In this document: piece by piece, positions 24,191 to 36,144 of the stretch
Numbering within the stretch: position 1 is the first letter of the stretch
Layout of the letters: each line of letters begins with the position of its first letter
DNA from: Longimicrobiales bacterium
GTDB taxonomy: Bacteria > Gemmatimonadota > Gemmatimonadetes > Longimicrobiales > Gaopeijiaceae
Assembly: GCA_028823235.1 (NCBI GenBank)
Contig: JAPKBW010000020.1
Location: forward strand, 1 to 52,605
Direction: 5' to 3'
Length of the DNA stretch: 52,605 bases
The notes under the pieces: generated by a model
Database searches by the model: none
What the model was told of the DNA's origin: nothing
The model's input: only the letters and a program-made list of their open reading frames with translations
Program-made: the position numbers and the translations under genes

Positions 24191-25759
24191 ATGTTGCCCC
24201 TCGCCCCTCTCCGTCTACGGACTCCTGTGCTCACGATTCTTCGCCGCCTTGGTGGTCCTTTCTCCAGACTACGTAGCTCAGTTCTGCTTCTCTGCGTCCT
24301 CGGCATTGCCTGCTCGGCTGAGAGTGCTCAAGACACACGGGAACTGGCTCCCGCCTTTGCGGCGACTCAACCGGAGATCTTCGACGCCTCGGGGGCGCAG
24401 GTTAACGCCTGGGCCGACTTCGATGGTGATGGGGATCTGGACCTATTCGTCGGCTTTCGCGGGCGGGCAAATCGGCTCTATCGAAACGACCTCGGCACCT
24501 TCACCGACATCGCTGTAGAGCAGGGCCTCGCTGATGAAGAAGAAACCCGGGCAGCTGCCTGGGGCGACTACGATGGAGATGGCGACGCGGACCTTTACGT
24601 CGGCTTCGCTTCCATAGGCATCGGAAATCGACTGTACCGGAATGACCGAGGAACCTTCACGGATGTAGCCGCAGAACTCGGGGTGGACCGTGCGGGCACC
24701 AGCCGCCAACCGGCCTTCGTAGACTTCGACGGAGACAACGACCTCGACCTCTTCGTCGCTTTTCGGGATCGACCCAACAGTCTGTTTCGGAACGACGCGG
24801 GCGTCTTCCAGGACGTTACAGAATCGTCGGGCATCGGAGATCCACGCCGCACCGTGGGCGTGGCCTGGTTCGATATGGACGGGGATACCGATCTCGATGC
24901 GTTCGTGGCCAACCAGAACGGCGACCAGGACGGATTCTTCCAGAACCGAGGCGATGGCACCTTCGAGGACATCGCCGCATCGCTCGACATGCACCAGCCG
25001 GGACGAGCCGAGAACTTGGGCAGCGTCGGTACCGCGGTTTCCGACTATGACAACGACGGCGATCTGGATCTGTTCGTCGCTTCTTACGGCCCTGACATCC
25101 TCTGGCAGAATCAGGGCGATGGCACCTTCACCAACGTGGCGCCTGGCACGCCGCTCGCCGGCGACCATCACTCGGTGTCGGCTGCCTTTGGCGACTTCGA
25201 CAACGATGGGTGGGTCGATCTGTACGTCGACACGTTCCTAGCCGGGGAAGCCGAGGCGCGCGACTACCTGTTCCGAAACGTCGGCGGGGTCTTCACGGAG
25301 GTCACACCCGATACGCTGACAGCCCGAGGGGCGAGCCACGGTGTGGCTTGGGCCGATTTCGATGCAGACGGAGACCTCGATCTGGCGCTGGCGAACAACA
25401 ACAACGAATCGGGGACGCACCCGCTGTACCGAAACGAGATCGACCCGACTCGATCCAGACGGGCGATCCAAGTCGCAATCGTGAACAACAAAGGCGTCTG
25501 GACCCGACCGGGGGCGACCGTAACACTCCGCAGAGCCTCCGATGGATATATATCCAGCCGGCTCGTCGATACTGGCGGCGGCTATTCATCACAGGGAATG
25601 ACCCCAGCCCACTTCGGACTGCCGGCCGGGAACGGCCCGGTCAGCGTCTCCGTGTCATGGTTCGAGCAGGGCGAGGCGCGCACCGCCTCAGTCTCAGAGA
25701 TCGTGCCCGACGCATTCAGCACCCGCTGGCTGGTCCTGCGCATGGGTGTCACTCAATAG
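24191..25759 (+). CDS. FG-GAP/VCBS repeat lipoprotein with ASPIC/UnbV domain
   Basis: The product is 522 residues. After a signal peptide ending in LGIAC (lipobox, about residue 41), seven calcium-binding FG-GAP-type loops are visible: DFDGDGDLD, DYDGDGDAD, DFDGDNDLD, DMDGDTDLD, DYDNDGDLD, DFDNDGWVD, DFDADGDLD. They should form a seven-bladed propeller. The C-terminal segment (about 415-515), with IQVAIVNNKGVWTRPGATV and GGGYSSQG, is the ASPIC/UnbV domain found with such propellers (CRTAC1-like). These proteins are surface or periplasmic, probably binding carbohydrate or protein partners; the exact role is unknown. It is divergent from the lipoprotein region. Confidence 0.93.
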   Translation: MLPLAPLRLRTPVLTILRRLGGPFSRLRSSVLLLCVLGIACSAESAQDTRELAPAFAATQPEIFDASGAQVNAWADFDGDGDLDLFVGFRGRANRLYRNDLGTFTDIAVEQGLADEEETRAAAWGDYDGDGDADLYVGFASIGIGNRLYRNDRGTFTDVAAELGVDRAGTSRQPAFVDFDGDNDLDLFVAFRDRPNSLFRNDAGVFQDVTESSGIGDPRRTVGVAWFDMDGDTDLDAFVANQNGDQDGFFQNRGDGTFEDIAASLDMHQPGRAENLGSVGTAVSDYDNDGDLDLFVASYGPDILWQNQGDGTFTNVAPGTPLAGDHHSVSAAFGDFDNDGWVDLYVDTFLAGEAEARDYLFRNVGGVFTEVTPDTLTARGASHGVAWADFDADGDLDLALANNNNESGTHPLYRNEIDPTRSRRAIQVAIVNNKGVWTRPGATVTLRRASDGYISSRLVDTGGGYSSQGMTPAHFGLPAGNGPVSVSVSWFEQGEARTASVSEIVPDAFSTRWLVLRMGVTQ

Positions 25760-27430: not shown

Positions 27431-28888
27431 TTAGTACGGCAGCAGGTACAGCGCTACAGCCAGGAACGGGATCAGCAGAATCATCATCGTGATTCCGTAG
27501 CCGAACATGTCGCGAGCTCGGAGACCCGTGATCGCAAGCAACGGAATGGCCCAAAATGGATTCAGCAGGTTCGTGTGGGCATCGCCGACTGCGTACGCGG
27601 CGATCGTCTGGCCGGGTGGGATCCCCAGTTCTGAGCCAGCGAGTAGCATGGGTCCACCAACGATCGCCCACTCACCACCCGCAGAGGGGACGAATACGTT
27701 CAGCACGCCGCCGGTCAGCCAGGCGGTGATTGCAAAGGTGTCCTGAGTGGCAACCGAGAGCAGCGCCTCCGTCATGGAGTCGACGAGGCCAGTCCCCGTC
27801 ATGATACCGATGATTCCCGCATAAAACGGGAACTGCAGGATCACCCCTGCGCTGCCTCGAACCGCGTCGTTGAACTCCTGCTGATATCGGGCAGGGCTGA
27901 CGTAGAGCAGCATCCCGATCATCATGAACCCAAAGTTGAACACATTCAGGTTGAGGGCGCCGAGCCCTTGTGTCCAAAACGCGTGCAGAAAGAGGATGAG
28001 TCCGGCCACAGCCAGGATCCCGCCGAGCACACGGCTGTTGTCGATGCGGTCAGCGAGCGTCCGCTCACCGACGTCCGCCGAGGCGTGAGCCGCGGACTTG
28101 TCCGGAACTCCCCCCGCGCCTTCCTCTGGCTCGTTCTCGACATCGAGGTAGTGCTCGATGCCCCGGCAATTGGCGTCGGGCGGGGCCAGCATATACAAGA
28201 GAATGGACCCGACCAGCAGCGAGAGGCCAGTCAGGATCAGTGGGTAGGGATGAAATACCCATTCCGTCGCCGGAACGACTCTGTCGATGATCCCCGTGGT
28301 CATGAACACGTTCCCGTCCGTGGCCTGGAGCAGTCCCGCGGAACTCGACAGCCCCCAACCCCACGTCAGGCTCATGCCGAGATATCCGGCAACGGCGAGG
28401 AGAGGATAGTGGACAGGGATGCCTGCCTTGTGGGCCACCTTCCCCATCTCACGGGCGAGGATCGCACCGAAAATCAGGCCAAGTCCCCATGAAATCCAAC
28501 CGACGATCATCGAGCCAAGGCCGACGAGAACCACTGCCTGCCGTCCGTTCGACGGGAGCTGGACCAGGCGAACGATGCCTGCCCGCACGCGCGGGTGATA
28601 CGCGACCACAAATCCCGTCACGAGGATAATCACCATCTGCATCGCGAACTGGAGCAGGTTCCAGAATCCGCCGTACCAGGCGAGCGCCACCTCTGCCGGT
28701 GTCGATCCCTCTGAGAGGAACGCCGCCAGCGCCGCCACGTAGGTGAGGATGATCGCAAACAGAAACGGGCTGGGCATCCACCGTTCGACACGATCTGCAA
28801 CGCCCTCACCGAATTTTTGGACCAGTGTCATGGGCACAGCCACGTCCCCGCCGCTGGGGGTTGCCCCGGCCTTCTCTCTGGTGCTCAA
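27431..28888 (-). CDS. atoE: AtoE-type short-chain fatty acid transporter
   Basis: The product is 485 residues, slightly longer than E. coli AtoE (440), and has about 12 membrane helices. The start is TTG: GGAGG lies six bases before it, and the TTGA overlaps the stop of the ankyrin gene. An N-terminal hydrophilic leader of about 25 residues precedes the first helix. The N-terminal WMPSPFLFAIILTYVAAL, internal WGLGLIFGAILAREMGK and late VFVPSAGGEWAIVGG segments match PF02667 (SCFA_trans). An acidic loop (about 240-275) is extra. It probably exchanges short-chain acids such as acetoacetate or butyrate. It closes the five-gene operon. Confidence 0.9.
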   Translation of the reverse strand: MSTREKAGATPSGGDVAVPMTLVQKFGEGVADRVERWMPSPFLFAIILTYVAALAAFLSEGSTPAEVALAWYGGFWNLLQFAMQMVIILVTGFVVAYHPRVRAGIVRLVQLPSNGRQAVVLVGLGSMIVGWISWGLGLIFGAILAREMGKVAHKAGIPVHYPLLAVAGYLGMSLTWGWGLSSSAGLLQATDGNVFMTTGIIDRVVPATEWVFHPYPLILTGLSLLVGSILLYMLAPPDANCRGIEHYLDVENEPEEGAGGVPDKSAAHASADVGERTLADRIDNSRVLGGILAVAGLILFLHAFWTQGLGALNLNVFNFGFMMIGMLLYVSPARYQQEFNDAVRGSAGVILQFPFYAGIIGIMTGTGLVDSMTEALLSVATQDTFAITAWLTGGVLNVFVPSAGGEWAIVGGPMLLAGSELGIPPGQTIAAYAVGDAHTNLLNPFWAIPLLAITGLRARDMFGYGITMMILLIPFLAVALYLLPY

Positions 28889-30897
28889 TGCACACCTCCG
28901 CCGGGACGCTTGGTGGATGTCCGAGCCACAGCCGTTGACTGGTCATCCTCCTCGGTCCTCGGTGCCCATGGGTCGTCTACGCCCGCGAGTGGGCAGAAGT
29001 CGCCCGTATCAAGGAAGTGCGTGTGCAGGCACTCCAATGTCGAGCCCATCTCCTGAAGGAATTCGACGGTTTCGGGAAAGGCAAAGCGAGTGAAGAATCC
29101 AGACCTGCCTCCGCGCGCCATATCCGCCGTCGACTGTCCGAGCCGTGTGATCACCGTCACGTCGCCGCCCTTGGAAATTAGGTATTCGATGAGTTTGTTG
29201 TCGCCACGGGACGACGCATAATGCATCGCCGTGAAGCCCCATGAGTCTCGCTGGTTCACATCTGCTCCGAGTTCTTCCACGAGATAGCGGACGGCCGGGA
29301 TGAAGCTGTACGGGACGTTTCGCACGCTGAACGATCCGAGACCAGTGAACCCTCCGCCCGCAGCTACGTGGATCGGCCAGGCGTTCGAAGCATCCTCGGG
29401 TATCCACGGCAGCCCGGAATCCTCCTGCTGCCGACCGTCTTGCTGACGACGCTCACGCATGCCTACGGCGGGCCAGGCGGTCGGCATGTTCGGATCCGCC
29501 CCATGAGCTACGAGAAGTGCCATCGCATCGACGTCCTGGGCGTACGCAGCGCGCCAGAAAGGCGTGGCGCCCTTGAGGTCCGTGCCAATCTTGGTCAGCC
29601 CGTACTCCCAGTACCAGAGATGCGTCCGGAGTCTGAGATTCGGATCCGCCCCCGCCGACAGAAGCGCTCCAATCACGTCCATGTACTGGGCAGACTGTTG
29701 GTCGTGCGCTCGCGGTTGGGGATAGTTCGACTTGGGCGCCCAATGCGTGTTCAGCACGGCAAAAAGAGGATTGGCCCCATCTGTCGACGCAGAAAGGTTT
29801 GGGTCGGCGCCGCGCTGGACGAGTTGCAGAGCAAGATCAAACTGGCCGTTGAGCGTTGCCATGAGCAGGGGACTCGTCTTGTCGCCCCCACTCACACGAT
29901 CGATGTCCGCTCCCCCATCAAGGAGGGCGTTTGCGGCTTCGACATGCCCCTCACGGGAAGCATGTAAAAGGGCGGTCATACCGCCGGTCATACCGACGAG
30001 TGTCTCGCGATACCGTGGCCGCGGCACATCCGGGCCACCGGGATAATCCGGCCGATACGACACCAACTCGTCGGGGTCGTACTCGCTATAGGGCTCGCCG
30101 GACCGCAAATAAGCGCGCTGAGCCTCGATGGCTTGCTGCAGCTGGCTCGGGGACGGCGCCCAGCCATCACCTCCCTCATCGGTCTCTTTGATGGCGGTCA
30201 GAGTCTGACGCAGGTGCCGGCCTGCGGCGAGATCTGCGAGGACATTCCGCCGTACGTCGACCACCACGGTCTGGACGGAAGGGTCGGCCGCCGCGGCAAG
30301 CAGAACCCGCACGGCTGCCGCACGGTCCTTCCCTGCAGCAAACATGAGCGGCGTCTGCCCCGAAGAAGCTTCGAGCGCGTTCGGGTCTGCACCATGTTCG
30401 AGCAGGGCGGCTACCGCCGCCTCACCATCGATCGCCGCCGCCGCGAGATGAAGAGCGGTGACCCCGCTACTCGTTGTCGCGGCATTCGTGTCACTCCCCG
30501 CAGCCAGGAGCAGCCGCACCACCTCGCCGTGCCCCCGCTGTGCCGCGAGATGCAGCGGGAGATAAGCGCCGATGCGGGTGCCTGCGTCCACGTTAGCGCC
30601 CCCTTCGATCAGCGCACCGGCCACCAATGCATCTCCCTGCTGCGCAGCCCAGTGCAGCGCACTCATGCCATCGCCTTCCGCTGCATTGACGTCGGCGCCA
30701 CCGGCAATGAGTGCCACGACCGCCTGCGCATCGCCCTGGCGCGCGGCCTCCACGATCGGATCCACTCCCAAAAAAAGATCTGACCAATGATTCTCTATCA
30801 GCCCGAGGGCAGGCGTCGGACTAGCGGAGAGTGCGACGAACAAACATGCCCATGTACTGGCCAACGCAAGCCTCGACCCGCGCGACACTACTCTCAC
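28885..30897 (-). CDS. Secreted ankyrin-repeat protein
   Basis: The product is 670 residues with a GTG start overlapping the DUF1552 stop (GTGA). A signal peptide (about 1-31) puts the protein outside the cytoplasm, which is unusual for ankyrin proteins. Repeats with the D-x-x-G-x-T/S-x-L-H-x-A-A consensus occur at about 50-225 (five, for example GDGMSALHWAAQQGD), 310-400 (three) and 540-620 (two or three). A proline- and tryptophan-rich segment (about 480-540) separates the last set. A nonconserved acidic C-terminus follows. It is probably a scaffold for the neighbouring DUF1592/DUF1552 proteins. Its partner and function are unknown. Confidence 0.93.
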   Translation of the reverse strand: MRVVSRGSRLALASTWACLFVALSASPTPALGLIENHWSDLFLGVDPIVEAARQGDAQAVVALIAGGADVNAAEGDGMSALHWAAQQGDALVAGALIEGGANVDAGTRIGAYLPLHLAAQRGHGEVVRLLLAAGSDTNAATTSSGVTALHLAAAAIDGEAAVAALLEHGADPNALEASSGQTPLMFAAGKDRAAAVRVLLAAAADPSVQTVVVDVRRNVLADLAAGRHLRQTLTAIKETDEGGDGWAPSPSQLQQAIEAQRAYLRSGEPYSEYDPDELVSYRPDYPGGPDVPRPRYRETLVGMTGGMTALLHASREGHVEAANALLDGGADIDRVSGGDKTSPLLMATLNGQFDLALQLVQRGADPNLSASTDGANPLFAVLNTHWAPKSNYPQPRAHDQQSAQYMDVIGALLSAGADPNLRLRTHLWYWEYGLTKIGTDLKGATPFWRAAYAQDVDAMALLVAHGADPNMPTAWPAVGMRERRQQDGRQQEDSGLPWIPEDASNAWPIHVAAGGGFTGLGSFSVRNVPYSFIPAVRYLVEELGADVNQRDSWGFTAMHYASSRGDNKLIEYLISKGGDVTVITRLGQSTADMARGGRSGFFTRFAFPETVEFLQEMGSTLECLHTHFLDTGDFCPLAGVDDPWAPRTEEDDQSTAVARTSTKRPGGGVH

Positions 30898-32315
30898 CCG
30901 CCCGCCCCATTCGTTGGCCGGCTTCCGGGATACGTCAACGGAAGGGCACCCGTACTATCTCCGAACCCGTCCATGTCGTGACCCATCCCCTGCATCACGC
31001 TCAGGAGCGGGTTCGCCATGGGCGTTCCCTTGGGCGCACGCAGGTGAAGGTTCCCCTCGAGTGCCCCGTTCGCGTGACCCATCAACAGGAGAGGGCAGCG
31101 CCGATGATTGTGGAGATTGGGGTCGCCCATCGGTGAACCCCATACGATGGCGGTCTTATCCAGCAGTGAACCGTCCCCATCAATCGTGTTCTTCATGCGC
31201 TCGAGCAGGTACGCGAGTTGGCCGGTGCGGTGTGCGTTGATCTTGTTGAAGTCCATGATGTCCTCGGGGACGTTGCCGTGATGCGAGGCCCCGTGGTGCG
31301 ACTTCGTGGTACCGCTGTTCGGGAACGTGCGATTCGACTGATCGAATCCGGTCTTGAACGTGATGACCCGAGTCATATCTGTCTGCAGCGCGAGGACCTG
31401 GAGGTCGAACATCAGTTGCATGTGTTCCTCCCAAGAGTCGGGGATGCCGGACGGAGCTTCGGGCATCTCCCGCTCTTCTCCGCTGCTGTTGCGGGCTTCG
31501 ACGAGCTGAATCCTCCGCTCCACTTCCCTCACATGGGTCAGATACTGATCCATCGCAAGACGGTCCGTAGCACCCAGAGAGGTCCTCAGGCGGGCCACCT
31601 CTCCGACGATATAGTCAAGCATGCTCCGATCAGTCCGACGCCGCGCTGCACGATCCTCCGGCGTATCCCCTGCTCCGAACAACCGCTCGAACACAGCGCG
31701 AGGCTCTCGAATCGCAGGAAGTGGTTGGTTCGGCGACGCCCATGACAGCGAGGTGGTATAGGCGCAGTGGTAGTTGTACGCGCACCCACCCCCCCGATCG
31801 ATCACCTCTGTGCACAGTTCGAGCGACGGGAGCGCCGTGTCTTGCCCGAACCGTTGCGCATGGATCTGGTCGAGCGATGTGCCGAGAAAGACGTCGGATC
31901 CCTGCGTCTGCTTCGGGTGGGCCTGCGTGAGAAAGACCGCGGTCGACCGATCATGATCGCCCCCGATCTCCTCGGGCCGATACGGCTCCGCCATGCGGCA
32001 ATCCGTATTACTGACGACCGTCAGGTACTCGCGGTAAGGTTCGAGCAGCTTGAGCTGGCTGTCGACGTGAAAGTCGAAGTCGCGCCCGACTTTGGCTGGC
32101 GCGAAAAGATTCTTGGCATCGCCCCACTCGCTACCGCCGGCGCTCCCCATCGATTCTTCTATGCCGATGAAGCGCGTGAACCCGGAGTCACGACTCTTGT
32201 CGACCCATGGGCGGCCTGCCGGAACCATGGCGTCCATGAACGGCAGAGCGAAGCTGGCGCCCAGGCCACGCATGAAAGTGCGACGAGACAGATGAGTACC
32301 TGTGATGAATTCCAT
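30894..32315 (-). CDS. DUF1552 (HXXSHH) domain protein
   Basis: The product is 473 residues from ATG 32315, where MEFITGTHLSRRTFMRGLGA gives a twin-arginine-like leader. A longer start at 32369 would run into the upstream gene. The PF07586 hallmark SHHGASHHG occurs at residues 339-347. The family is usually encoded beside DUF1592 proteins in planctomycetes, verrucomicrobia, acidobacteria and relatives. Its biochemical role is not known; a metal-dependent hydrolase related to sulfatase/alkaline phosphatase-like DUF1501 proteins is a common guess. The gene starts four bases after the DUF1592 stop and overlaps the ankyrin gene start. Confidence 0.93.
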   Translation of the reverse strand: MEFITGTHLSRRTFMRGLGASFALPFMDAMVPAGRPWVDKSRDSGFTRFIGIEESMGSAGGSEWGDAKNLFAPAKVGRDFDFHVDSQLKLLEPYREYLTVVSNTDCRMAEPYRPEEIGGDHDRSTAVFLTQAHPKQTQGSDVFLGTSLDQIHAQRFGQDTALPSLELCTEVIDRGGGCAYNYHCAYTTSLSWASPNQPLPAIREPRAVFERLFGAGDTPEDRAARRRTDRSMLDYIVGEVARLRTSLGATDRLAMDQYLTHVREVERRIQLVEARNSSGEEREMPEAPSGIPDSWEEHMQLMFDLQVLALQTDMTRVITFKTGFDQSNRTFPNSGTTKSHHGASHHGNVPEDIMDFNKINAHRTGQLAYLLERMKNTIDGDGSLLDKTAIVWGSPMGDPNLHNHRRCPLLLMGHANGALEGNLHLRAPKGTPMANPLLSVMQGMGHDMDGFGDSTGALPLTYPGSRPTNGAGG

Positions 32316-32319
32316 AGCG

Positions 32320-34791
32320 TTACATCCCTTCGTGTGCGCCCTGGAGGGCACCGTCATCGGCGCCTGCATCGGCCGCCGGTTGAGATCGCATCATCTGGAA
32401 CGGGTCGCTCTGCACGACGCCGAGAATGAACGACGACATACGGTAGTCATTGGCCTCAGCATCCGCCGTGATCTGCCGCACGGATGGCTGATCGTAGTAC
32501 TCGGCGCGCCTGCCGATCGCGTAGGCCAGCAGGTTGGTCGTGAAGTTCCGGACTATGGGGATGGGCCGCTTCAGCAGGACGGTAGTGAGATCGGCTGGCG
32601 TGCTGACTGGGGTCCCATCGTAGAACGTGCCGCGTGTGTCCAGCGCCACCTGATTCTCGCGAATTCGCCATTGGCCGGTCACGTCGAAATTGTCCAGAGC
32701 GAGCCCGATTGGATCCATGAATCGATGGCATGAATTACACGTCGGGTTGGCGCGGTGGATCTCCATGCGTTCGCGGGTGGTAAGCCGCCGGCCTGACGCG
32801 GCACCCTCCGTCTCTTCAAAATTCGGAACGTTCGGTGGCGGCGGCGGCGGTGGTGTGCCCATCAATACTTCCATGACCCACTTGCCCCGGAGCACTGGAG
32901 ACGTCCGCGCAGACATGGACGTCAGCAGTAGCACGCTACCGTGCCCCAGAAGACCCCTGCGGGTCTCGTCAGGATACGAAACCCTCCGAAATTCGCCACC
33001 GGCAATTCCGGAAATCCCGTAGTGCTCTGCAAGGCGGGCGTTCAAAAACGTGTAGTCCGCGTCCAGTACCTGCAGCAGGCTTCGATCTTCACGAATGAGA
33101 TGGTCGAAGAAGAGCTGGGTCTCCCTCACCATGTCGTCCCCGAGCTGACCCGTGAAGTCCGGATAGAGGTACAGCTCTGGATTGTTCTTCTTCGCGTCCT
33201 GAAGGCGCAGCCACTGGGAGGCAAAACGGACGGACAGGGCCTCAGATCGCGGGTCCGCGAGCATTCGGCGCACCTCACCCTCGAGCACTGCCGGATCTGA
33301 GAGTCGCTCCTGCTCTGCGAGAATCAGCAGCCTTTCATCCGGGCCTGTCGCCCACAGGAAAAACGAGAGCCGTGACGCCAGATCCACATCGCTGATCCGG
33401 TAGTTCTCGTTCTCCCCGACGCCAGCGGGAGGTTCTTCCAGACGGAATATGAACGCCGGGTTTGCCAAGATCGCCTGCAGGGCCGTGCGCACACCGATTT
33501 CGAAGCCGGCCTCCGCGGCCCCCGTGTCATAGAAGGACATAGGGCCCGCGATGTCATCCTCTGTCACCGGGCGCCGGTACGCGGCCTGCGCGACCTTGTG
33601 GACGATGGCCTCAGCACACGGGCGCTCATCCTCAGAGGTGTCGGGATAGCAGGAAAACAAAGCCTCCCGGCTTGGCGTGGGCGAGACACCACTCGGGGTC
33701 TCCGGACCCGTGACCATGAGGTCCGCGAGGTGCGGCAGGGCAGTGATACCGTAGTTGGCCCACTGAATGGCGTCTTCACCGCCTACGAAGGACCACTCGA
33801 AAGGGCTCAAACGGTCTTCGTACGGTCCGTCGATATGCCGGACGAACGCAGCAGCGATCCGGCGCTGGCCTGCGCGGACAAAGACCGGCTCGGTCCGGAG
33901 AGGGTGCCCGGTCTGCCCGTTGTGCTCGAGCCGTAGCAACGCGACACCCTCGCCATCAATCGAGATGTCGAGATCTTCAAACCCAACGCCTTGGCCGAAC
34001 AGGGTCTCGATTGTAAACACATACTCGCCGTCGGCCGGGAAGTCGTGCGTAACGACCATCCCGCCCCGCGTACCAAAGGGGGTCCCCTCCAGATGATCCC
34101 AAGCGTGTTGGGACACCTCGATTGGGTTCATGTACTTCGTTGAAGTCGAGACAGCTTCAGGATTCCCAACCGCGATCCGGCTCACCTCGGTGGCCGCGCG
34201 GAGGTATGCCTCGAGGAGAGTCGTGGAGAGGCCCTGCGCGTCGGACAGATTGTCGAAATTCCCGAGGTAGGTGTCCGCTGGGAGCCAACGTCCCGCATCG
34301 ATTTCAAGGCCGAGAAGTTCGCGCACGACCCGTCCGTACTCGGCCCGGTTAAGGCGCTGGAAACGGCGCGAGCCCGGATTCGGATTCGCGGCGGCAGCCC
34401 CGTCGACGACTGCCTCCAGCCTCTCGACGAGGGCCAGCAGCGTGTCACCCTCAGGGCGATTCGCACCGGGCGGTGGCATCATGCCGGCCCGCAGCTTCAC
34501 GATCATCTTCTCTGCGACTGCGGCGTTCTCGTGCGCCGAGGCCGGGTCATATCCATCCAAGGTCAGATTGCCCGTCAGCCGCCGCTCGTTGTGGCAGCGG
34601 ACACAGTACCGATCCACGACGCCGACGAGGTCGGTTGCCTCTCCGGGGCCAGGGCCACCTAGGGACACCACATCGTCAAATACAGCGCGACTTGGCTCGA
34701 CTTCCGCAACATACACACGCCCCTCTGATGTCTGGCTAGCTAGTGTGAGCCAGACACCCAAAAGGGCCGTCGCTGCGGTGAATGTTTTCAT
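32320..34791 (-). CDS. DUF1587-DUF1592-DUF1588-DUF1585 cytochrome-like protein
   Basis: The product is 823 residues from ATG 34791 (GGAG five bases upstream; signal peptide, cleavage near TLASQT). It has two c-type heme motifs: C63-V-R-C66-H67 in a planctomycete-type cytochrome c domain and C685-N-S-C688-H689 in the C-terminal DUF1588/1585 region. In between lie the DUF1587 stretch RLNRAEYGRVVRELLGL, a carbohydrate-binding-like beta domain (about 235-330), and the DUF1595/DUF1592 segments with SRLSFFLWATGPDERLL. A run of seven prolines follows. The protein is periplasmic and probably redox-active. The gene is directly followed by DUF1552, its usual partner. Confidence 0.93.
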   Translation of the reverse strand: MKTFTAATALLGVWLTLASQTSEGRVYVAEVEPSRAVFDDVVSLGGPGPGEATDLVGVVDRYCVRCHNERRLTGNLTLDGYDPASAHENAAVAEKMIVKLRAGMMPPPGANRPEGDTLLALVERLEAVVDGAAAANPNPGSRRFQRLNRAEYGRVVRELLGLEIDAGRWLPADTYLGNFDNLSDAQGLSTTLLEAYLRAATEVSRIAVGNPEAVSTSTKYMNPIEVSQHAWDHLEGTPFGTRGGMVVTHDFPADGEYVFTIETLFGQGVGFEDLDISIDGEGVALLRLEHNGQTGHPLRTEPVFVRAGQRRIAAAFVRHIDGPYEDRLSPFEWSFVGGEDAIQWANYGITALPHLADLMVTGPETPSGVSPTPSREALFSCYPDTSEDERPCAEAIVHKVAQAAYRRPVTEDDIAGPMSFYDTGAAEAGFEIGVRTALQAILANPAFIFRLEEPPAGVGENENYRISDVDLASRLSFFLWATGPDERLLILAEQERLSDPAVLEGEVRRMLADPRSEALSVRFASQWLRLQDAKKNNPELYLYPDFTGQLGDDMVRETQLFFDHLIREDRSLLQVLDADYTFLNARLAEHYGISGIAGGEFRRVSYPDETRRGLLGHGSVLLLTSMSARTSPVLRGKWVMEVLMGTPPPPPPPNVPNFEETEGAASGRRLTTRERMEIHRANPTCNSCHRFMDPIGLALDNFDVTGQWRIRENQVALDTRGTFYDGTPVSTPADLTTVLLKRPIPIVRNFTTNLLAYAIGRRAEYYDQPSVRQITADAEANDYRMSSFILGVVQSDPFQMMRSQPAADAGADDGALQGAHEGM

Positions 34792-34836
34792 GAAATCTCC
34801 GGTCGCTCCCAATGTAGGGTGCGGCCAGTGGAGCGG

Positions 34837-35232
34837 CTATCGGCCTGGATGTTCTCTGGGCGATCGGCGGATCCCGTTGATCGAGCCCTCACCAAGATAC
34901 CCGCTCATGCCCCCCATGAATTCGTCGCCGGTGAAGTGCAACTCCATGGTCGCTCCTACGTCCGGAACGAGAAACGTCATCGTGTGACCATCCAGCACCA
35001 CCTCGGTAATCGTCGCAGCACCCATCTCTGTGTCGATGTCACCCGTAAGGCCACCGCCCTCGAGGCCCCGGACCGACAGCACGCCATCCACCTGGAGCCC
35101 CTCGATCATGATCGTCACATCCCAGACGCCCACGGGATCGAAGGGCTCTGGTGAGGGGAGGGCTCCAGAACCACCCCTACAAGCACTCAGCACCAAGGTC
35201 ACCACGAAGAGGACTGACGTTTTTCTATGCAT
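34837..35232 (-). CDS. Small lipoprotein, first gene of the DUF1592 operon
   Basis: The product is 131 residues. AGGA lies seven bases before the ATG. The leader ends in the lipobox LVLSAC at about residue 18, so it is a lipoprotein. The mature part (VGVWDVTIMIEGLQVDGVLS, then ISD/TE-type strands and GDEFMGGMSGYLGEGS) is a small beta-barrel-like domain of the kind that recurs in secreted proteins with a low-specificity ligand pocket. I do not recognise the family. Its stop is 45 bases before the DUF1592 start, and it probably shares the promoter of this operon. Confidence 0.7.
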   Translation of the reverse strand: MHRKTSVLFVVTLVLSACRGGSGALPSPEPFDPVGVWDVTIMIEGLQVDGVLSVRGLEGGGLTGDIDTEMGAATITEVVLDGHTMTFLVPDVGATMELHFTGDEFMGGMSGYLGEGSINGIRRSPREHPGR

Positions 35233-35607: not shown

Positions 35608-36144
35608 ATGCGTATCCGTCAATCCCTCTTTGCCGTAGCGATCTCTTCCATGGCCATCGCGCCGCCACTGCAGGGTCAGCAAGCCGAACCGCTCGAAACG
35701 ATCCGCAACTATACATGGGTCTCGGACGACCTCTCCTCCGCAGGACAGATCGCGTACCCGCAGATTCCCCTGCTCGCAGCGGAGGGCTACGCGGTCGTCG
35801 TGAACCTGGCGATCGCCGATGAGGCCCGGAACGGACAGGAGGGATTCCTGGTGGCTGAGACGGGACTTACCTATGTCCACATTCCAGTGGACTGGGAGCA
35901 GCCGACGCTCGACGACGTCGACATGTTCTTCGATATCATGCAGGCAAACGAAGGCCGGAAGGTCTTCGTGCACTGCTTCGCGAACATGCGGGCATCAGCC
36001 TTCGTATATCTGTACCGCACCATGGTTCAGGGAGTCTCCGAAGCCGAGGCTCGCGCTACGATGAGCGTAGTGTGGGACCCAGGTGAGTTGGAGCAGTGGG
36101 CCGGGCTGATCGAGCGGGCTCAGGCGCGAGGGCCCAGGCAGTAG
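35608..36144 (+). CDS. Secreted protein tyrosine phosphatase-like protein
   Basis: The product is 178 residues with a signal peptide (about 1-24, ending LQGQQ). The catalytic loop is HCFANMRASAF, with four residues between Cys and Arg as in the beta-lactamase hydrolase-like/COG3453 group, rather than the five of classical dual-specificity phosphatases. The upstream IADEARNGQEGFLVAETGLT segment and the conserved Asp in VHIPVDWEQP fit this group. Periplasmic location of a PTP-fold protein is unusual. Its substrate is unknown and some relatives may not be active. It is probably monocistronic. Confidence 0.8.
   Translation: MRIRQSLFAVAISSMAIAPPLQGQQAEPLETIRNYTWVSDDLSSAGQIAYPQIPLLAAEGYAVVVNLAIADEARNGQEGFLVAETGLTYVHIPVDWEQPTLDDVDMFFDIMQANEGRKVFVHCFANMRASAFVYLYRTMVQGVSEAEARATMSVVWDPGELEQWAGLIERAQARGPRQ

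Follow-up and report, generated by a model that had tools for sequence, protein, structure and literature searches.

Genes for DUF1592 and DUF1552 proteins are abundant in environmental bacteria. The closest described systems are the planctomycete-specific DUF1592/DUF1552 cytochrome pairs (PSCyt3-PSD), and PSCyt genes are known to carry carbohydrate-binding modules (CBMs) and to adjoin sulfatases (PMC5615132). Comparable architectures (X183-DUF1587-X132) occur in Cbp2D of Cellvibrio and in TERTU_2913 and TERTU_3803 of Teredinibacter. In Cbp2D and TERTU_3803 an X183 cytochrome is joined to DUF1587, X132, CBMs and GSDH-like domains, and an important role of cbp2D in growth on insoluble cellulose has been reported (PMC8981238, PMC10916295, PMC12542752). 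Here we describe a related gene module at positions 34788-28885 of a 52,605-nucleotide stretch of DNA (hereafter the window) from a Longimicrobiales bacterium with a 3.1-Mb genome, a member of the Gemmatimonadota. The module resembles the planctomycete pairs in its domain set, paired gene, multiple copies and two CXXCH motifs, but differs from them in adding a putatively translationally coupled, secreted-type ankyrin gene of one family, and in occurring in Gemmatimonadota, Acidobacteriota and Pseudomonadota together with variable uptake genes. With Cbp2D and the TERTU proteins, its DUF1592 protein shares an N-terminal c-type heme followed by DUF1587, a C-terminal CXXCH module, and possible links to carbohydrate binding and to GSDH-like domains. 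Unlike them, it lacks CBM2, X158 and fibronectin domains, contains a predicted internal jelly roll and is paired with DUF1552 and ankyrin genes, and no lytic polysaccharide monooxygenase (LPMO) is shown in the window. X132 probably corresponds to the DUF1592 domain set: the order of the domains and the CXXCH motif agree, and one CBM2 protein of Cellvibrio is annotated as ‘DUF1592 domain-containing’ (PMC6004670).

An earlier note on this DNA had proposed a five-gene operon as the unit. Our analyses show that the association is real and conserved but that its boundary was drawn wrongly: the unit is DUF1592-DUF1552-ankyrin, whereas a permease gene (AtoE) follows it in only 11 of 61 loci with room for it and a lipoprotein gene has no relative in any fetched locus. 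The five genes are:

32320-34788, minus strand: DUF1592-type cytochrome, core gene 1 (822 aa, ATG 34788; Pfam PSD3-PSD5-PSD4-PSCyt3-PSD2, above cut-offs)
30894-32315, minus strand: DUF1552 / HXXSHH (PF07586) protein, core gene 2 (Pfam, 281 bits against a cut-off of 30, E 1.7e-83)
28885-30897, minus strand: secreted-type ankyrin protein, core gene 3 (Pfam; alignment across phyla)
27431-28888, minus strand: SCFA_trans (AtoE-like) permease, lineage-specific add-on (PF02667, E 4.6e-116, 388.9 bits against 27)
34837-35232, minus strand: small lipoprotein, probably outside the module (131 aa; lipobox-like LSAC)

A search of 84,980 species genomes gave 80 relatives in three phyla, and almost all of them keep the order DUF1592-DUF1552-ankyrin. 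The genome of origin carries eight DUF1592 and eight DUF1552 genes, every one paired, and seven of the eight DUF1552 genes have a member of one and the same ankyrin family behind them; the eighth sits in a tandem array, DUF1592-DUF1552-DUF1592-DUF1552-ankyrin. A profile search of this genome for the ankyrin family found no member outside the modules other than a partial gene on the small contig C43, which complements the copy truncated where contig C37 ends. In broader neighbourhood samples, which favour the best Pfam matches per genome, DUF1592 precedes DUF1552 in 29/29 Gemmatimonadota, 30/30 selected genomes, 27/29 Acidobacteriota and 23/28 of a Pseudomonadales order sample, and the corresponding counts for an ankyrin gene behind DUF1552 are 25/29, 25/30, 17/29 and 1/28. 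The pair is thus the general arrangement, of which the ankyrin-linked triple forms one sub-type. The triple was found in Gemmatimonadota, Acidobacteriota and some Pseudomonadota, and it is across these groups that the exported redox module of the earlier note, with an ankyrin protein belonging to the pair, is borne out.

In a tree of 113 DUF1552 proteins, built with a quick method, the window copy falls with its near relatives in a clade of strong support, nearly all of whose members are ankyrin-linked. Because this clade mixes Gemmatimonadota, Acidobacteriota and Pseudomonadota, it points to horizontal transfer of the module. The pairwise distance matrices of the three core proteins correlate (r 0.94-0.97), as expected for co-inherited genes, which alone is no proof of interaction. 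The association of the three genes exceeds chance; that of AtoE does so only within one lineage, and that of the lipoprotein does not.

All five open reading frames (ORFs) are colinear, and the 4-base overlaps and the 4-base gap of the earlier note were recovered in place. The gap separates DUF1592 from DUF1552 when the latter begins at its best start, ATG 32315, rather than at the longer start of the ORF listing (32369). DUF1552 and the ankyrin gene overlap by 4 bases (30894-30897); in 59 of 78 loci the nearest start gives this same overlap, and the two genes are probably translationally coupled. The claim of tight junctions fared less well further downstream: ankyrin and AtoE overlap by 4 bases (28885-28888) only if AtoE begins at a TTG, its first ATG (residue 20, ~28831) would leave a 50-odd-base gap after the ankyrin gene, and in relatives this spacing varies from ~0 to 250 bases and is not conserved. 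The lipoprotein gene lies 48 bases from DUF1592. A scan of the region for sigma-70-type promoters found 0 against 1.9 expected, a terminator scan was uninformative and an RNA family scan of the region found none.

The ankyrin protein, as far as its sequence tells, is one specific conserved family and no bland scaffold, because long invariant non-ankyrin insertions are kept across phyla (alignment A3). Examples include WPxxGMRERRQQDGRQQEDSG, THLWYWEYGLTK and a C-terminal C-x3-HFLDTGDFC. A hydrophobic, signal-like N-terminus is present in 36 of 38 relatives. The NCBIfam models for Dot/Icm ankyrin effectors reached 83 bits against cut-offs of 600 and the like, which reflects generic ankyrin similarity only. 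Our literature search retrieved no paper linking this family to DUF1592/DUF1552 cytochromes, nor any in which DUF1592 and DUF1552 were found together. The family is thus a strong marker apparently undescribed in the searchable literature, where the pair was already known and the ankyrin-coupled triple appears to be new.

The DUF1552 protein is modelled as a sulfatase/alkaline phosphatase fold. Its predicted structure resembles this superfamily over ~270 residues, most of its length (best match 2qzu, VIA Z 14.5, 276 aligned residues, 4.7 A, 9% identity), and 402 chains match it with Z of at least 8. Unlike sulfatases, DUF1552 does not have the C/S-x-P-x-R nucleophile motif: among 31 relatives, the formylglycine signature occurs in none as CxPxR and in three as SxPxR, which is not conserved. 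It has instead conserved GDHDR, HXXSHH (30 of 31 sequences) and HxH motifs, and many invariant His and Asp residues, including H121, H298, H341, H345, H346, H402, H404 and H424. A twin-arginine-like export signal with an RRxF motif is found in 31 of 32 relatives.

The DUF1592 protein bears CXXCH heme sites at residues 62-66 and 684-688, and both are kept in 35 of 35 relatives. Its AF2 model (pLDDT 73.2) contains a beta-sandwich at about residues 211-366 that was missed by Pfam, whose scan of the protein gave no CBM match. In the structure search this jelly roll is suggestive of a CBM6/35-like module: CBM6, CBM35 and CBM36 modules top the list, with 2cdp (CBM6) as the best match (Z 8.8, 97 aligned residues, 3.0 A); the structure search tool's own note places noise at Z ~7-8. 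Single-sequence and profile searches of the PDB with DUF1592 and DUF1552, and with AtoE, gave nothing useful; matches to BRICK1 and to designed filaments were dismissed as coiled-coil or low-complexity similarity.

The three genes are co-inherited and multi-copy, the DUF1592 and DUF1552 families are of exported type and the ankyrin protein has a signal-like N-terminus. We tentatively favour, at somewhat less than even probability, the reading that positions 34788-28885 hold one copy of a mobile three-gene module encoding an exported redox system that acts on carbohydrate-like material outside the cell, probably by oxidising or trimming it. DUF1592 would bind a sugar-like substrate via its jelly roll and carry electrons through its two hemes, and DUF1552 would be a metal-dependent partner processing the substrate at its His-rich site. 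The ankyrin protein may dock onto or assemble the pair via its invariant inserted loops, with the DUF1552-ankyrin coupling keeping their amounts matched, and paralogous copies of the module might serve different substrates. Each lineage would append its own uptake or accessory gene, be it SusC/SusD, an NHL propeller, a pyrroloquinoline quinone (PQQ)-type sugar dehydrogenase or, here, the AtoE-like permease, whose role would be to bring in a small organic acid or a comparable product. Our inference extends to the reaction, the direction of the electrons, the formation of a complex and the product that AtoE would carry.

We read the module as carbohydrate-directed because of the CBM-like domain and the neighbouring genes, and because of the CBM fusions and sulfatase neighbours reported for PSCyt genes and the architecture held in common with Cbp2D and the TERTU proteins. 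In nine loci SusC and SusD genes lie on the same strand between DUF1592 and DUF1552, with the ankyrin gene after (L057 (1022-11371), L035, L036, L039, L040, L042, L047, L051 and L077). Seven loci have the PQQ-type sugar dehydrogenase GSDH near the module, six a CBM9-like/DUF5916 gene upstream of it, and in Planctomyces a 3-keto-disaccharide hydrolase follows DUF1552. The nine loci recall SusCD polysaccharide utilisation loci, from which the module differs in that its partner enzymes are not glycoside hydrolases and that the window copy lacks SusC/SusD.

Several observations weigh against this reading. The window copy has no carbohydrate gene beside it, the jelly-roll Z of 8.8 is barely above the tool's noise range, and confidence in the DUF1552 model is moderate (pLDDT 63.5). 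The searched literature assigns no substrate or reaction to DUF1592 or DUF1552, nor is one on record for any member, and the X183 domains of Teredinibacter failed to reduce an LPMO (PMC10916295). Moreover, distant Sphingobium pairs without ankyrin adjoin genes for cytochrome b561, a flavin monooxygenase, Rieske proteins and acyl-CoA dehydrogenases, which suggests hydrophobic substrates.

These Sphingobium neighbours also speak for the main alternative, that in the periplasm the module attacks hydrophobic or aromatic compounds, such as sterols or secondary products of plants and algae, with DUF1592 passing substrate electrons to the respiratory chain and the carbohydrate-like neighbours being incidental. 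On Sphingobium plasmids the pair occurs with cytochrome c', cytochrome b561, SDR, flavin monooxygenase and Rieske genes, and near another Sphingobium pair lie genes for acyl-CoA dehydrogenases and for a hydroxysteroid dehydrogenase. However, these pairs are only ~24-30% identical, carry no ankyrin gene and are distant in the tree, whereas ankyrin-linked copies have SusCD, GSDH and CBM9-type neighbours, and we consider this alternative unlikely.

The pathway proposed in the earlier note, in which the five products form a chain where a periplasmic complex releases a short-chain acid and AtoE imports it, is a rather more doubtful explanation. The tight gene spacing in the window agrees with it, as do the occurrence of AtoE behind the module in 12 of the 80 relatives and the correlation of DUF1552 with AtoE distances (r 0.915, 13 taxa). 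Yet, among the 61 loci with room for a further gene (at least 1.5 kb after the ankyrin gene), 50 carry no AtoE there, and the 11 that do are all close relatives from one region of the tree, on which the trait changes three times. AtoE is the only PF02667 gene of its genome. Close homologues exist in 15 genomes of the same family, this one included; six stand behind the ankyrin gene and nine elsewhere. Both ankyrin and AtoE genes therefore occur as partners of the pair beyond this genome, so the refuting case named in the earlier note does not apply, but a small acid fed to AtoE as a property of the unit is not upheld. The permease matches PF02667 over its full length, like SCFA_trans/AtoE permeases, but scores 387.6 bits against the TIGR00366 equivalog, below the cut-off of 575.75, so a short-chain-acid substrate is not established. 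It is ~32% identical to AtoE-type proteins of relatives in the class and, unlike in AtoE systems, no ato CoA-transferase genes are found among the adjacent ORFs examined. Some stand-alone AtoE-like genes (L226, L229, L220) adjoin genes of the GSDH, gluconolactonase-like or Gfo/Idh/MocA kind, a hint that they take sugar acids and not fatty acids. The lipoprotein gave no Pfam or NCBIfam match and no relative in any fetched locus, and probably lies outside the module.

In 18 loci (L041, L046, L080 and 15 others) the slot of AtoE is taken by a gene for an NHL-repeat propeller, downstream on the same strand and mostly within 200 bases; six other loci have an NHL-related gene upstream of DUF1592. 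Because this slot holds an NHL propeller elsewhere, and because SusC/SusD occur inside the module in nine loci, the transport genes are accessories that can be swapped, and AtoE is a passenger or uptake partner that is optional and specific to its lineage.

A more specific proposal than the carbohydrate-directed redox system, and one that we regard as quite improbable, is that the trio is a new extracellular oxidative enzyme system. Its two-heme cytochrome would exchange electrons with a His-rich metal centre in a nucleophile-less sulfatase-type fold, and the ankyrin protein would be part of the substrate or docking site, providing an LPMO-independent attack on glycans with many paralogues per genome.

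The ankyrin protein AnkB may protect or assemble a Pseudomonas catalase. A general diheme module for respiration, peroxidase activity or stress, without catabolic substrate and protected or assembled by its ankyrin protein, would fit the invariance of the two c-heme motifs and the stress response of Rhodopirellula DUF1552 and PSD genes (PMC2754498). It is very unlikely, however, since the number of diverged copies in each genome and the variety of uptake genes speak for diversification by substrate. No di-heme peroxidase fold was among the structure-search matches of DUF1592, an absence which is no evidence against one.

With a defined three-gene unit, a predicted DUF1552 fold and uptake genes swapped between lineages, what was a vague association becomes a system amenable to expression and assay as a complex; the module is of moderate interest in that it makes an old unknown testable. 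A complete copy lies on a 1.3-Mb plasmid of the named soil strain Novosphingobium sp. KACC 22771 (L124), a candidate experimental host, where it adjoins molybdopterin-binding dehydrogenase, SDR, LysR and PfkB genes. Copy number reaches 14 DUF1552 genes in one acidobacterial genome (G237), and several copies are arrayed along single contigs in two Gemmatimonadota (G099 C57, G086 C16), suggesting substrate-driven expansion. In another locus (L017:5498-17416) an AtoE gene is flanked by two complete tandem modules.

Recurrent ORF clusters (c3, c7 and c10) were set aside as probable antisense shadows of high-GC genes. Elsewhere in the window, a secreted dual-specificity phosphatase-like protein (35608-36144, plus strand; PTP-NADK and BLH_phosphatase matches) is encoded divergently from the operon, and a lipoprotein-like secreted FG-GAP/ASPIC-UnbV protein at 24191-25759 (plus strand). 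A tRNA gene and a class A RNase P RNA gene lie on the minus strand at 1-74 and 1112-1478.

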